From NCBI GenBank assembly GCA_021731025.1, contig JAKFYD010000037.1, forward strand, positions 1-64,000: DNA of 64,000 nt. Reading direction: 5' to 3'. The notes under the pieces are model-generated. The model did no database searches and had not been told where the DNA came from. It was given only the letters and a program-made list of their open reading frames with translations. Position numbers and translations under genes: made by a program. The stretch is from Pseudobdellovibrionaceae bacterium (GTDB lineage: Bacteria; Bdellovibrionota; Bdellovibrionia; Bdellovibrionales; Bdellovibrionaceae). This document shows, piece by piece, positions 10,108 to 50,900 of this stretch. How positions within the stretch are numbered: position 1 is the stretch's first letter; each line of letters begins with the position of its first letter.

Positions 10108-11028
10108 ATGGGGCAAGGCCACCACCATCATCATGGTCATCATCACCACCATCACGAGCATGGTCACGAACAAACCTTAAGCCGTTTGCGAATTGTCTTT
10201 TTCCTGAATTTAGCATTTGCAATTATTGAGTTGGTGGGTGGACTTTGGGCGAACAGTTTAGCGGTAACTTCAGATGCCCTTCATGATTTCGGCGATGCGC
10301 TGGCTTTAGGCTTAGCTGTCTTTTTAGAAAAATCGTCTCAACAAACTGCAAATAGCAAATACACCTATGGCTACCGAAGGCTCTCTGTGGTTTCGGCTGT
10401 TGTCTCTGGATTAATATTAATGATGGGATCTTTTTGGATTCTTAAAGAATCCGTTGAAAGATGGAGTGAGCCTCAAGTGCCTCACAGCACAGCTATGATT
10501 TTTCTGGCCTTGCTGGGTTTAAGTGTTAACGGCTACGCGGCTTGGAAAGTTTCGGGCGGAAGTTCCCTGAATGAAAAAATGATTCGCTGGCATTTGATTG
10601 AAGATGTTCTGGGGTGGCTTATTGTTTTAGTTGGCGCCATCTTTATAAAAATTTTCGAATGGCCTCAGGTCGATAGTATTTTGGCTGTGGGTTTATCCAT
10701 TTGGGTCATTTACAATGTCATTCGAAATTTGCGTCAATCTCTTGCCGTTTTTTTACAAGCCATTCCTGACGGAATGAATGTGGGAGAGATAAAAAAATCA
10801 CTGATGCAATTACCAGGTGTCGAAGACGTGCACCACATGCATCTGTGGTCACTGGATGGGGTGGAGCATATTTTAACTTCCCATGTTCGAGTTCGTGCGG
10901 ATTTTAATATTAAAACCACGGAAGAATTAAAAAAGAAAATTAAGACTCATCTTAAGCAGTTCGGAATTGTTGAAGCGACGATAGAGTTTGAGTGGTCAAC
11001 AGACGATTGCGTCGACCCTCACCACTAG
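10108..11028 (+). CDS. cation diffusion facilitator (Zn2+/heavy-metal exporter)
   Basis: 306 residues, CDF family. The first 22 residues contain 13 histidines in a metal-binding tail (GHHHHHGHHHHHHEHGHE). Six transmembrane helices follow, with the metal site NSLAVTSDALHDFGDALALG in TM2 (HxxxD) and a matching VEDVLGWLIVL in TM5. The C-terminal ~90 residues are the cytoplasmic dimerising domain (VEDVHHMHLWSLDG). Zinc is the likeliest ion, with cadmium or cobalt possible. ATG at 10108 follows AGAAGGGG. A long hairpin element begins at the last base of its stop codon. Confidence 0.93.
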   Translation: MGQGHHHHHGHHHHHHEHGHEQTLSRLRIVFFLNLAFAIIELVGGLWANSLAVTSDALHDFGDALALGLAVFLEKSSQQTANSKYTYGYRRLSVVSAVVSGLILMMGSFWILKESVERWSEPQVPHSTAMIFLALLGLSVNGYAAWKVSGGSSLNEKMIRWHLIEDVLGWLIVLVGAIFIKIFEWPQVDSILAVGLSIWVIYNVIRNLRQSLAVFLQAIPDGMNVGEIKKSLMQLPGVEDVHHMHLWSLDGVEHILTSHVRVRADFNIKTTEELKKKIKTHLKQFGIVEATIEFEWSTDDCVDPHH

Positions 11029-11151
11029 GAAGGCTTGCTAATAAACCCGGGCCCTTCGTTGCTTAGTCGGTCGGCTTGTGCGGCGTACTTTCGTACGCCT
11101 CCGCGCCTTCCTTCTGCGCGCCTCGGTCGCGGGCTTATTAGAAAGCCTTCC
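11028..11151. repeat. hairpin element A1 (variable arms, conserved core)
   Basis: Left arm 11028-11049 and right arm 11130-11151 are inverted repeats of 22 bases with 2 mismatches. The 80-base core (11050-11129) opens with CCCTTCGTTGCTTAGTCGG and contains an inner hairpin (11082-11088 with 11093-11099). About 30 bases at the start of the core and CGCCTCGG near its end recur in element A2 at 49085-49168, whereas the outer arms differ. The left arm starts on the last base of the CDF stop codon. It lies between convergent genes and could act as a two-way terminator; GTTTTTT occurs downstream at 11167-11173. Confidence 0.75.
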
Positions 11152-11187: not shown

Positions 11188-11691
11188 TTAATTAGTTGAG
11201 CTGAGTCGCTTTTTTATTTCTGCGATGTTTTTGCGGAAATTTTCTTTGGATTCTTTGGTGAAACCTTTTTCGGTTTTTAGGACTTCACCGTTTTTGTTGA
11301 TGAAATAGAGGATGGGTAAGGCGCTGACTTTCAGTTTTTGCGCGAGTTCTTTTTTTTCATCGTGAAGAACCCAGGTGTCGAGAGGAATTTTTTTAAGAAA
11401 ATCGAGAGCCTGTTCTTTTTTTGTATCCATATTGATGGCGACGAGTGTCCAATGGGTTAACTTCATTTTTTTAAGTTCTTCCGTGTAAAAGGGAAGTGAT
11501 TCAAGACAGGGGGCACACCAGGATGCCCAAAAATCAACCAGGTAAACTTCGGATTTCTTCTCAATTAAACTTTTAACAGTACGCTCATTCAAGCTGATGG
11601 ATGGCCAATCCTCTTTAGGATTTATTTTTAATGTTTCGGTATAAGCCTGAAGGGATAAAGAAAAAATAAATAGGAACGAAATGAGTTTCAT
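11188..11691 (-). CDS. TlpA-like thioredoxin, exported
   Basis: 167 residues. A signal peptide (MKLISFLFIFSLSLQAYT) precedes a thioredoxin fold with the active site WASWCAPCLESLPF near residue 73 and the cis-Pro region VSALPILYFINKNG. The family reduces or oxidises periplasmic thiols, often in cytochrome c maturation; the many CxxCH proteins at the far end of this window may be clients, but that is conjecture. It lies 2 bases after the AarF-like kinase gene on the minus strand, so the two are one transcription unit. Confidence 0.88.
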   Translation of the reverse strand: MKLISFLFIFSLSLQAYTETLKINPKEDWPSISLNERTVKSLIEKKSEVYLVDFWASWCAPCLESLPFYTEELKKMKLTHWTLVAINMDTKKEQALDFLKKIPLDTWVLHDEKKELAQKLKVSALPILYFINKNGEVLKTEKGFTKESKENFRKNIAEIKKRLSSTN

Positions 11692-45521: not shown

Positions 45522-45639
45522 GGAAATATATCCACCCAAATCCTTCGGACAGTCCTCGGGCGCGGGGTGGTTTATCGAGTTCACACTCGAAGTCCTGTGG
45601 CGCTCCCTGTGGAACTTGAATTTGGGTGGATATATTTCC
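45522..45639. repeat. hairpin element B1 (variable arms, conserved core)
   Basis: GGAAATATATCCACCCAAAT (45522-45541) is a perfect 20-base inverted repeat of 45620-45639. The 78-base core begins CCTTCGGACAGTCCTCGGGC and recurs inverted in element B2 at 46387-46508 with only 5 differences. The innermost 8 bases of the arm (ACCCAAAT) are shared with B2, the outer 12 are not. Its left arm begins one base after a stop codon. On the minus strand TATTTTTCG follows the arm, so a terminator role is possible. The element and its T-tract are read directly; function is unknown. Confidence 0.78.
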
Positions 45640-45721
45640 TTTGCGCGGGGATTTGGGTCGCCTCGGTGATCCCGAAGATTTATTTACTGACTTTTTTCAG
45701 AAATTTTGGTGCAATAAAGTT

Positions 45722-46508: not shown

Positions 46509-48083
46509 CTATCTGGCGACGGTGGATTCATTGACTAATGTTTCGCGAACCACGACGACTTTGATTTGGCCTGGGTAGCTGCATTCTTCTTCGATTTGTC
46601 GAGCGATTTTTTGGGACAGAGCTAGTGCCTCTTGGTCGTTAACTTTTTTACCATTCACCATGACTCGACATTCTCTGCCGCCGCTCAGGACGTAACAATC
46701 GGTGACGCCTTCGTAGCTTCGGGCGATGTCTTGGAGAACTGTGACCTTTTGATTGTAGGATTCAATTGTTGAACGGCGAGCTCCGGGACGGGCTCCTGAA
46801 ATCGCATCGGCTGCGATCACCAAATAGGCCATGTCTGTAGCTGGTGCGACGTCAAAGTGATGGGCGCGCACGTTGTGAACTACGTCTGCGGCTTCATTTC
46901 TTTTTTCAATGAAGTCGGCGCCGATCATCGCATGGCCACCATCGACGACGTGATCCATGGATTTGCCGATGTCATGAAGCAAACCGCTGCGACGAGCTTT
47001 TTTGGTGTCCAACTGCATTTCCGAGGCAAGTAAACCGCAAAGCCAACCGACTTCGCCGCAATGAAAGTATTGATTTTGCGTGAACGAATAACGGTAGCGC
47101 AAACTTCCCATCATTTGGCGAATTTCGGGATGCATATTTTCCATTCGCAATTCACGAGCAATGGCGTCTCCATCATTTTTAATCTGACGGAAAAGTTCTT
47201 TCTTTTGGTTTTCAGCGATTCTGCGAATCACATCAGGAGTGATCGCCTTTTTTTCTTTCATGATGCGTTCGAGAGTTCGCCGGCTGAGTTCGCGACGAAC
47301 GGGATCGTAGCCCGCGATCCCAATTTGATCAGACTGTTCATCCACAATGACATCACAACCACAGGAATCCTGAACGGCCTTGATGTTATTGCCTGCGGGA
47401 TCGCAGAAATTTTTTCGAACTTGAGGATCTGGAAATTGGACATTTCCAATACCTCGTTCGGCGCAATAGGGGCGCATAAAGCGATCCAAGGCCGCATCCA
47501 AGTACTGTTTCGCTTTGGCTTCCGAGTGGCTTTTGAGATCTTCATCCAGCATCTCGAGCCATCTTGTCGCTCGATCACGAACTTCTTTTTCTAAGTCTTG
47601 TTCGATTTCACTTTTAATTGTCGGAACTGAAAAATTAAAGTGTTGAACAACCTTATCAATCAATTGCAAAGCCAGAGTTTTAACTTCTTCTTTGCGTGTC
47701 ATTAAACCTTTTTCGCGATTTTTGATTTTACTTTCTTGAGACTGAACTTCTTTTTCGTAATTTTGGTTGTCTGATTTTAATTTTTGCCAAAAGTCGTCCT
47801 GTTTCTTCTTATTTTCGTCGATCAGTTCTTGCAAATTTTCAATTTTTTCTTCGATACGTAAAATGTCAGCGTCATGTTTGGCCCAGATGGCGGTTTCGAT
47901 CTCTTGGTATTTTTCGTTTTCCTCGAGGGCACGTAAATCAAGCCATTCTTTGACGTCATCTTGGTGTTCTTGAGCTTCCTCTTTTGCTTTTTTTATAAGC
48001 TGTTCTCGCCAAAGGCGAAAAATAATCAGACCTAAAGTTGAGCCAAGAAGAAGTGAAATAAGAGCGGCGATAGCAATTTGCAT
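46509..48083 (-). CDS. rny: ribonuclease Y
   Basis: 524 residues, membrane-bound endoribonuclease that starts mRNA decay. N-terminal transmembrane helix (IAIAALISLLLGSTLGLIIF), long coiled coil to ~residue 190, KH domain (IKAVQDSCGCDVIVDEQSDQ, GYDPVRRELSRRTLERIM) and HD domain (RSGLLHDIGKSMDHVVDGGHAMIGADF). Standard size (about 520). Its presence fits a lineage outside the classical enterobacteria. The KH loop DSCGCDV is more Cys-rich than usual. The predicted mRNA is leaderless. Confidence 0.95.
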   Translation of the reverse strand: MQIAIAALISLLLGSTLGLIIFRLWREQLIKKAKEEAQEHQDDVKEWLDLRALEENEKYQEIETAIWAKHDADILRIEEKIENLQELIDENKKKQDDFWQKLKSDNQNYEKEVQSQESKIKNREKGLMTRKEEVKTLALQLIDKVVQHFNFSVPTIKSEIEQDLEKEVRDRATRWLEMLDEDLKSHSEAKAKQYLDAALDRFMRPYCAERGIGNVQFPDPQVRKNFCDPAGNNIKAVQDSCGCDVIVDEQSDQIGIAGYDPVRRELSRRTLERIMKEKKAITPDVIRRIAENQKKELFRQIKNDGDAIARELRMENMHPEIRQMMGSLRYRYSFTQNQYFHCGEVGWLCGLLASEMQLDTKKARRSGLLHDIGKSMDHVVDGGHAMIGADFIEKRNEAADVVHNVRAHHFDVAPATDMAYLVIAADAISGARPGARRSTIESYNQKVTVLQDIARSYEGVTDCYVLSGGRECRVMVNGKKVNDQEALALSQKIARQIEEECSYPGQIKVVVVRETLVNESTVAR

Positions 48084-48673: not shown

Positions 48674-49084
48674 ATGACTATTCTTTTAAAGATTATTTTA
48701 CGACGGTTCTTTATAGTGTTGCTTATCGCCGGTATCGGAGTCTTCTTTTACTTTGGCTATTCCTACATATTTTCAAGGGTCATTACGGGAGAAATCACCG
48801 GTGCTAAACATCTTTTAGAATCAAATGCGATCATCACAAGTCCGAATGTTCGAGCGCAGTCGCCTCAAATTTTTTCATTCGCCATTGCCATTCGTGATCA
48901 TAAGACCGGAGAAATCGTGACGGGTTCTTCAGAAGACCGTCAGTGGGCCGCCGTGAAAGAAGGGCAGTGTGCTCGCGCTGAATTTTTTCCTTATCCCCCT
49001 TGGGAGCTCAGTAAGGCCGGCACATATTTTGGGGCAAGGCTGCTGGGACTTTATGACAATTGCGAAATAGCTCTCAAAAAATAA
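48674..49084 (+). CDS. single-pass membrane protein of unknown function
   Basis: 136 residues. One N-terminal transmembrane helix (RRFFIVLLIAGIGVFFYFGYSYIF) and a soluble, probably periplasmic domain of ~100 residues with conserved-looking QSPQIFSFAIAIRDHKTGEIVTG and GQCARAEFFPYPPWELSKAGTYFGARLL. No family recognised. The start codon has only weak upstream signals. Element A2 starts on the base after its TAA. Confidence 0.65.
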   Translation: MTILLKIILRRFFIVLLIAGIGVFFYFGYSYIFSRVITGEITGAKHLLESNAIITSPNVRAQSPQIFSFAIAIRDHKTGEIVTGSSEDRQWAAVKEGQCARAEFFPYPPWELSKAGTYFGARLLGLYDNCEIALKK

Positions 49085-49168
49085 GCACCTCTTCCTATAA
49101 GCCTGGGTCCTTCGTTGCTTAGTCGGTCGGCTTGTGCGCCTCGGCCGCAGGCTTATAGGAAGAGGCGC
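49085..49168. repeat. hairpin element A2 (variable arms, conserved core)
   Basis: Arms 49085-49104 and 49149-49168 are 20 bases with one mismatch. The 44-base core (49105-49148) shares CCTTCGTTGCTTAGTCGGTC and following bases with A1, and CGCCTCGG near its end, but lacks ~36 bases of A1's inner hairpin. The left arm starts on the base after the stop codon, and the other convergent stop lies 13 bases past the right arm. Read in minus direction, TTATTTTTT follows the arm. Confidence 0.75.
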
Positions 49169-49181
49169 GTGCCTTTATTGT

Positions 49182-50900
49182 TTATTTCTTTTCTGAAAAT
49201 GAATCTTTGAGCTTTTTTAAGCGAGCCACATGTCTGTGGGTACGAATATTCTCGTTTGCAGGAAGAACTGTGGTTTTTATTGTTTCATCCAGTAATTGCG
49301 TCGCTTTGTTTTTGTCTCCTTTTTCGGCTTGCAATTCGGCAAGAAGATAAACAACTCTGAGTTTATTATCGCCGTAGGAGTATTTGTAAGCGGATTCTGC
49401 TTTAGCTAAAGCAAGATCGGGTTGTTTTCTTTCTTTTAAAACCTGAGCATGATTGTAAAAGAAGGTAAATTCTTGAGGATAGATCTTTTGCATCTGTGAA
49501 TACAGCTGATCAGCCTTTACAAAATCTCCGGACTTATAAATGGCCCAGATTCTCGTTATGTTGTAACCCCGTGAAGATTCAGGATTTAATTTTTCAGTGC
49601 GAATCAACTGAGAGTAAGCTTCGGCGCCCTTTTTATAGGCCTCTTTGGCTTCATTTTCCATTTTGAGTTCCTCGAAAGCCGTGGCTTTCAGCAGCCATAG
49701 CTCTGGATAGGTGAATTCCGCAGGGATAGCTTGCCTCTTATTTTTCAGCCAAGCATCAACCAGAGAAAGTGTTTTTTCGTGGATCCATTTATTTAAAGCT
49801 TCATCTTTATGATCTTCTGCAAGTTGAGTGAGCCGACTGTATTTTTCATAGAAAGTTTCGGGGAAAGGGTAGCTTTGCAGAGACAACTTAAGAAGTTCGC
49901 CACTTTGTTTTTGTAAATCTTTATCGGTTGATTTTGCCATCAGAACCAAAGGCAAAAGCTGCAGAAGATCTTTCTCTTTTTCGGTGAGTTTTTTCTTTTT
50001 TGCGGCCAGCGAAAAGTATTTTAAGGCTTCAGAGGTATTTTCCTGCCTCCAGTGCATTTCTCCGAAGGCCCAAGTTTGTTCGGGGGAACGCAGGGACTCG
50101 GCCCTTTTTTTTCTTTCCTCAAAACTGAGATTTTTATCCTTCAGAGCGAGCTTCATTTCTTTTAGAAAATCATTTTTAGGCCGACTGCCAAGAATCCGGG
50201 AAATCTCTTCGGCTTGGGGGTTGGTAAAAATTATTGTTGGGTAGACTTTAACATTGTATTTCACTTTAAGTTCCCAAGAAGCAGGATCATCACCATCCAG
50301 CTTCAAGAAAACAAAATCCTTATAAAATTTTTTAAAATCTTTGGTGTTAAATACTGTTTCATCGAGGACATTGCAGGGGGGACACCAGGTCCCGAAAAAA
50401 TCGATCATCATCGGTTTGCGGCTTTGCCGAGCTTGCTCGAGAGCCTTACTGGCGTCGTTATGAATGAAAATTTCATCAACTTTAGGAGCTTTTGCAACCG
50501 TAGCGGTGGGAGTTGATACCGGCGCCAGAGCAACAACCTTTTGATTGCGAAGATCCTCGCAGCGGTAGGATTTTGTTTGGGGTAAGCAGTAACTGTTAGC
50601 GTCGTCGCAGATGTAAAGTTCAACGTTAAGTTGGCAGCTCGGGTCCAGGTCACTAATGGCAACGCTCCCCGACGTAGATTCAAGCTTTAAGTGAAGAGCA
50701 GAAGTTTGCTGCTCTTGAATCTTTTCTACCTGTGAAGGCGCCTGAAGATTAAAATGATGGCCTTTGGAGGGCTTAAACTGAAGTTCTTTAGTGCCGTTTG
50801 AGCTTTGCAATTCAGCGCTGAAATCCACCTCAGTGGCGGAAAATCCCATTAAAGGTGAAAGAATGATCAAAGAGAAAATAAAAGAAAAGTCCTGCAACAT
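49182..50900 (-). CDS. exported thioredoxin-like protein with TPR region
   Basis: 572 residues. Signal peptide (MLQDFSFIFSLIILSPLMGFSA), an N-terminal domain with DsbD-like beta pattern and Cys pairs (LDPSCQLNVELYICDDANSYCL), then a thioredoxin domain at ~150-250 with MIDFFGTWCPPCNVLDETVFN and the cis-Pro VYPTIIFTN. The C-terminal ~300 residues are tetratricopeptide-like helices (AYKKGAEAYSQLIR, FFYNHAQVLKERKQPDLALAKAESAYK). Probably a periplasmic reductant or chaperone. GGGAGG precedes the ATG. Confidence 0.85.
   Translation of the reverse strand: MLQDFSFIFSLIILSPLMGFSATEVDFSAELQSSNGTKELQFKPSKGHHFNLQAPSQVEKIQEQQTSALHLKLESTSGSVAISDLDPSCQLNVELYICDDANSYCLPQTKSYRCEDLRNQKVVALAPVSTPTATVAKAPKVDEIFIHNDASKALEQARQSRKPMMIDFFGTWCPPCNVLDETVFNTKDFKKFYKDFVFLKLDGDDPASWELKVKYNVKVYPTIIFTNPQAEEISRILGSRPKNDFLKEMKLALKDKNLSFEERKKRAESLRSPEQTWAFGEMHWRQENTSEALKYFSLAAKKKKLTEKEKDLLQLLPLVLMAKSTDKDLQKQSGELLKLSLQSYPFPETFYEKYSRLTQLAEDHKDEALNKWIHEKTLSLVDAWLKNKRQAIPAEFTYPELWLLKATAFEELKMENEAKEAYKKGAEAYSQLIRTEKLNPESSRGYNITRIWAIYKSGDFVKADQLYSQMQKIYPQEFTFFYNHAQVLKERKQPDLALAKAESAYKYSYGDNKLRVVYLLAELQAEKGDKNKATQLLDETIKTTVLPANENIRTHRHVARLKKLKDSFSEKK

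Follow-up and report, generated by a model that had tools for sequence, protein, structure and literature searches.

Results

Two hairpins behind stop codons and their neighbouring genes

A window of 64,000 nucleotides from a Pseudobdellovibrionaceae bacterium was analysed in this study, and "the window" refers to this whole stretch. Two hairpins in it, A1 and A2, each lie between a gene on the forward strand and a convergent gene. A covariance model, R1, was built on their core and used for the genome scans. The features are as follows.

10108 to 11028, + strand: gene 5' of A1, cation efflux (CzcD/ZitB-like), by inspection of the sequence
11028 to 11050, + strand: 5' arm of A1; its first base is the final G of the zitB-like stop codon TAG
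11051 to 11130, + strand: conserved core of A1, corresponding to R1 positions 1-80
11131 to 11151, + strand: 3' arm of A1
11188 to 11691, - strand: convergent gene beyond A1, thioredoxin-like, by inspection
48674 to 49084, + strand: gene 5' of A2, 136 aa, no assigned function
49085 to 49106, + strand: 5' arm of A2, directly 3' of the stop codon TAA (49082-49084)
49107 to 49148, + strand: core of A2, internally shortened by a deletion of some 38 bases; the inner hairpin is gone
49149 to 49168, + strand: 3' arm of A2
49182 to 50900, - strand: convergent gene beyond A2

The inverted repeat of A1 spans 27 nt (11028-11054 with 11125-11151) at 85% complementarity, and that of A2 spans 26 nt (49085-49110 with 49143-49168) at 88%. 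Besides two of family B, described below, these were the strongest long inverted repeats in the window. When folding was compared with shuffled sequences, z was -6.3 for A1 and -5.9 for A2. The 20-base core occurred twice in the window, against 0 expected from shuffled controls. The inverted repeats, z-scores and core counts confirm the preliminary description of the two hairpins as one core between differing but paired outer arms. Its statement that the arms are perfectly or nearly paired holds for "nearly"; perfection in A1 outside the core does not, as one A.C and one G.A mismatch are present there.

The core of A1 contains an inner hairpin, GGCGTAC TTTC GTACGCC. Read on the complementary strand, the loop of the core is GAAA and its internal loops are tandem G.A/A.A. 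A GC-rich hairpin stands between an A-rich block, which belongs to the 5' arm, and a T-rich block, which belongs to the 3' arm. This T-rich block comes after the inner stem. After the whole stem, where the 3' arm ends, the window's copies show no T run.

Copies in the genome and across the phylum

The preliminary description had proposed a search of the genome and its relatives with the core, and this search recovered about ten copies in the genome and copies in 27 of the 291 genomes sampled from the phylum. With up to 3 mismatches, the 3.49 Mb genome has 9 occurrences of the 20-base core (0 for a reversed control pattern), and R1 detected 10 copies in the same genome (G000). R1 copies were present in 19 of the 66 genomes of the family, and the richest genomes of the phylum sample hold 9-15. 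Presence was patchy: G000 has 10 copies and its genus mate G001 has 0, while the half-complete G026 has 15 and its genus mate G009 has 0. No hairpin was found at the orthologous zitB and RNase Y sites in relatives, and the smc-ftsY junction was empty in G024 and G032.

The inner stem was two-sided in 9/9 readable copies, with CCTG/CAGG in five and CCCG/CGGG in four, so the covariation between CCC/GGG and CCT/AGG noted earlier is real. Covariation in the core exceeded every shuffle. Across the window, Rfam gave no match at the gathering score, and A1 and B reached only chance level. A broad core pattern search of genome contigs returned only 7 loci, of which two were in records of this group, two were Myxococcales contigs with a similarly designed hairpin and three were chance-like. 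The two Myxococcales loci (L104 and L107, Myxococcales bacterium Hm464_bin50) carry hairpins of the A design with a matching core start. Within the literature collection searched, nothing was found on Bdellovibrio palindromes or MITEs. A1 and A2 are members of a previously unlisted hairpin-repeat family of about 85-125 bases in Bdellovibrio-like bacteria.

Three G000 copies (L006, L008 and L145) have an extra piece, GTCGTGCGG, in common after the element, and it is longer in L006 and L008 (GTCGTGCGGCCTTGATCTTTAG). The sharing of this piece shows that there are composite arrays. In L008 the 3' half is missing, and a further inverted repeat is present. Downstream of a small membrane-protein gene in genus g7, 21 species were compared at one gene tail (L174-L194). 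The states seen there were a terminator only, the element, an element of another subfamily, and probable one-arm remnants (L176, L191).

A second family, B, is present in the window as two copies.

45522 to 45639, + strand: B1, core ACCCAAATCCTTCG..AATTTGGGT, beginning 1 nt after a stop codon
46387 to 46508, - strand: B2, with its start immediately 3' of the stop codon of RNase Y
46509 to 48083, - strand: RNase Y gene, with B2 behind its stop codon

The arms of B1 are perfect over 20 bp, the outer 12 bp being unique, and the arm of B2 is perfect over 22 bp, the outer 14 bp being unrelated to B1. The two cores are about 95% identical (counted by eye). B1 and B2 are inverted relative to each other and about 750 bases apart, and no further copy of the family B core was found in the genome. 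A small hairpin, GGGAT..ATCCC, lies directly after B1 at 45645-45675; in it ATTTGGGT, the end of the B arm, is joined to CGCCTCGG, the end motif of A. It is perhaps a remnant linking families A and B.

Docking behind stop codons

The spacing between the stop codon of the same-strand gene and the start of the core is strict, at about 22 nt (15-31 nt in most copies). The settings divide into 20 convergent and 18 tandem. In convergent settings the element was nearer the same-strand gene in 20/20 cases and in tandem settings its orientation was 18:1, counts that include copies orthologous to one another and therefore overstate independence. The ZitB, RNase Y and L160 hydrolase proteins align to, or almost to, the final residue with hairpin-less relatives. 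The stop codons at these three sites, where tested, are ancestral by this sequence comparison.

At L115 (G063), mutS appears to end within the element, which supplies the stop codon. L113 and L191 also have an ordinary A-hairpin-T terminator downstream of the element. At L047 (G021), an inverted repeat with nearly perfect arms of 54 bases lies 19 nt past the RNase Y stop codon.

Ancestry and divergence of the arms

In G253, 11 copies (L229, L231-L240) are near-identical in both cores and arms (RGGCCTATCCCAAAACCCTCATCTGC and its mirror), which indicates that the arms travelled together with the core. All 11 are flanked by TTA/TTA or TAA/TAA (flanks read by eye), a pattern that fits a putative 3-bp target duplication. 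In 53 copies of other genomes, flank duplications were at background level. When the G000 copies were placed in register, their outer arms gave a worn consensus, GRAACYTTCCTAATAAGCCYGG. Over the outer 9 nt, pairwise identity was 41-46%, compared with 24-25% for shuffled letters, and none of 5000 shuffles was as high. L006 and L145 have arms in common, including the same bulge, and arm identity declines with distance from the core. At L160/L007 the 5' arm extends into the coding sequence, and the coding tail resembles the element consensus, unlike the tails of orthologous genes. The outer arms had been described as different sequences; this holds for A1 compared with A2, and over the whole G000 set the outer arms are not unrelated. 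Arms alignable across copies, which the preliminary description regarded as the sign of a normal repeat, were found in G253 and in part in G000; the arms of G026 are unrelated.

Three species (L154, L155 and L156) have three different arms at one site behind smc. Of the 19 positions in each arm, 6-10 (32-53%) differ between these species, and fourfold-degenerate (synonymous) sites differ at 33-40% between the same species. This comparison indicates that the arms change at about the neutral rate while pairing is kept; 56 of 57 pairs were retained and one was broken. Block swapping of the smc-site arms was a first impression that we dropped after calibration against the synonymous sites. Across 49 stems, 962 of 1037 arm pairs were Watson-Crick (93%), and two-sided arm changes were found at orthologous sites. 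Together with the wobble strand bias described below, these two observations support selection on the arms for structure only, as had been suggested.

The cores of the closest pairs in G026 differ at 1-6 of about 79 positions, and their arms are 12-62% identical. For near-identical cores 3-5 changes of 79 apart, arm identity was 19-62%. Over all pairs in this genome, arm identity was uncorrelated with core divergence. Selection on the core by a lineage-specific binding protein, gene conversion of the core, or rebuilding of the arms would explain this uncoupling. Simple co-transposition followed by slow drift does not obviously give it.

The strand that folds

Single-step mismatches on the gene strand comprised 33 A.C and 10 G.U, with shared ones collapsed. 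Conventional terminators from the same loci and genomes had 2 A.C and 12 G.U (Fisher p = 5e-5 against the element). In tandem settings only, the element had 1 G.U and 10 A.C. Read on the complementary strand, the mismatches of the element are mostly G.U. This excess of A.C over G.U suggests that foldability is maintained on the complement of the gene strand. The mean folding energy was -62.2 kcal/mol for the complementary strand and -59.0 kcal/mol for the gene strand (p = 8e-4). Internal-loop columns 20-21 with 143-144 and 26-27 with 133-134 carry the pyrimidines TC on the gene strand, and the complement accordingly shows a pair of tandem 5'-GA/5'-GA motifs. In tandem settings the complement is no ordinary mRNA, and the bias there points to a putative antisense-side RNA or a single-stranded DNA hairpin.

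Search for a mobilising partner

G000, G001, G026 and G009 each have 5-10 Y1_Tnp (RAYT-like) genes (L197-L212). When R1 was run with filters off on a subset of 16 Y1_Tnp loci from these four genomes, no significant match was obtained. RAYT-like genes were equally common in genomes without the element. A RAYT-borne REP was rejected, as the element showed no linkage to RAYT-like genes at the 16 loci scanned. In G253, the search found no autonomous element ending in the arm sequence and no pair of such ends at insertion-sequence distance.

Discussion

Likeness to known systems

IS5 and IS1031 follow the target rule TNA/TWA. The G253 copies resemble MITEs of IS5-like insertion sequences in their terminal inverted repeats, in the putative TTA/TAA 3-bp duplication and in being near-identical. 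Terminal inverted repeats common to recent copies, as in MITEs, are seen in G253 and partly in G000. However, no partner insertion sequence with the G253 ends was found, and duplications did not exceed background outside G253. MITEs conserve their ends and not their interior, whereas the element does the reverse across the phylum. In integron attC sites the bottom-strand hairpin matters, the arms vary and the site lies behind a stop codon, and the element is similar in all three respects. Unlike attC, it conserves the apical core and not the ends, shows no RYYYAAC/GTTRRRY ends by inspection, and is hosted by ordinary chromosomal genes.

REP elements are small dispersed extragenic palindromes with compensatory stem changes (PMC2817692), and REPs of the GTAG type often provide the neighbouring ORF with its TAG stop codon (PMC3733652). 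The element is like the REP/BIME/REPIN and RAYT system of gammaproteobacteria in being a small extragenic palindrome that touches stop codons and undergoes compensatory stem changes. It differs in length (about 85-125 bp, compared with 20-40 bp for REPs), in copy number (tens at most, compared with hundreds) and in its ends, which lack a GTAG or CGTC tag (read by eye). RAYT-like genes are present but, at the loci scanned, unflanked by the element, and the loop is conserved rather than the stem. The element has neither the head motif nor the linked RAYT of a REP, and shows only part of what defines a MITE. By analogy, the family would work most like REP elements and, in G253, most like an IS5-type MITE.

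Origin of the fixed core and the free arms

The element follows stop codons, in many cases where two genes converge (20 convergent and 18 tandem settings), has A-rich and T-rich blocks around a GC-rich hairpin, and is vertically inherited at some sites. In these respects it is like a terminator, and an ordinary cis-acting 3'-end structure, a bidirectional intrinsic terminator inherited vertically and shaped by compensatory evolution, would account for them. Unlike terminators, however, the element has a structured core conserved across a phylum, and its wobble bias on the gene strand is opposite to theirs. The window's copies have no T run after the 3' arm that closes the full stem, L113 and L191 have a separate ordinary terminator downstream, and patchy presence among species together with identical recent copies indicates mobility. 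We consider this explanation unlikely. In another proposal, terminator hairpins were there first, the core entered their loops, and the arms are the old terminators. The arms are indeed site-specific and paired, and g7 genomes have hairpins immediately after stop codons. However, 464 kb of the window's genome contain few long inverted repeats outside these families, the T run is absent after the arm, bare hairpins are missing at the orthologous zitB and RNase Y sites, and the g7 terminator persists beside the element. The rarity of long inverted repeats and the lack of bare hairpins in orthologues led us to reject this proposal, which is very improbable.

The preliminary description had also suggested a fresh inverted copy by template switching at the gene tail. 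In such a process a polymerase would copy one arm, or the gene tail, into the other arm at each insertion or repeatedly in place, and the arms would be rebuilt at every site. Template switching homogenises the arms of inverted repeats, inverting the spacer as well when it occurs between arms (PMC8604942), and quasipalindrome mutations occur in E. coli (PMC7202029). In favour of this process, G026 cores reach 95-99% identity while the near-perfect arms are unrelated and core and arm similarity are uncorrelated, and B1 and B2, at about 95% core identity, have perfect yet unrelated arms. However, the recent G253 copies share their arms, the coding-tail arm of L160 (as at L007) matches the element consensus and not the orthologues, and the smc-site arms change at the neutral rate and no faster; on these three grounds copying of the gene tail was not supported. 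Moreover, no spacer inversions were seen, orientation being fixed (18:1 tandem, 20/20 convergent), and the process predicts mismatches without strand bias, whereas a strong bias was observed. It is quite unlikely.

Concerted evolution would instead start from old hairpins, each with its own arms; gene conversion, or selection through a lineage-specific binding protein, would then make their cores alike. High core identity within genomes and lower identity between them agree with it, as do the fall of arm identity away from the core and the lack of a core-arm correlation in G026. It leaves unexplained the lineage-specific gain and the identical G253 arms. A homology tract of about 80 bp is also short for conversion between dispersed copies. 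We regard this explanation as improbable.

We favour, with modest confidence, a dispersed mobile palindrome, REP/MITE-like, in which the core is fixed, the arms are free but paired, and the complementary strand is kept foldable. The unit would move in the manner of a MITE or REP, as a small foldback element, and would be tolerated only where the stop codon is kept. After landing, foldability may be maintained through recognition of the folded complementary strand, either as an RNA structure at which transcription coming into the gene from its 3' side is blocked or ended, or as a single-stranded DNA hairpin that a mobilising protein recognises. The core sequence would be held by a recogniser that differs between lineages, and the arms would need only to pair. 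With G026 and B1/B2 in mind, a version in which the arms are resynthesised at or after landing around the fixed core, and the single-stranded complement is recognised by its shape, has a low probability.

A mobile palindrome of this kind would add to predatory bacteria a phylum-wide palindromic repeat family with an inverted pattern of conservation. Foldability of the opposite strand would be a testable sign of an antisense-side transcription barrier or of a strand-specific DNA hairpin, and the strand bias may offer a way to separate selection on structure from copying of the arms.
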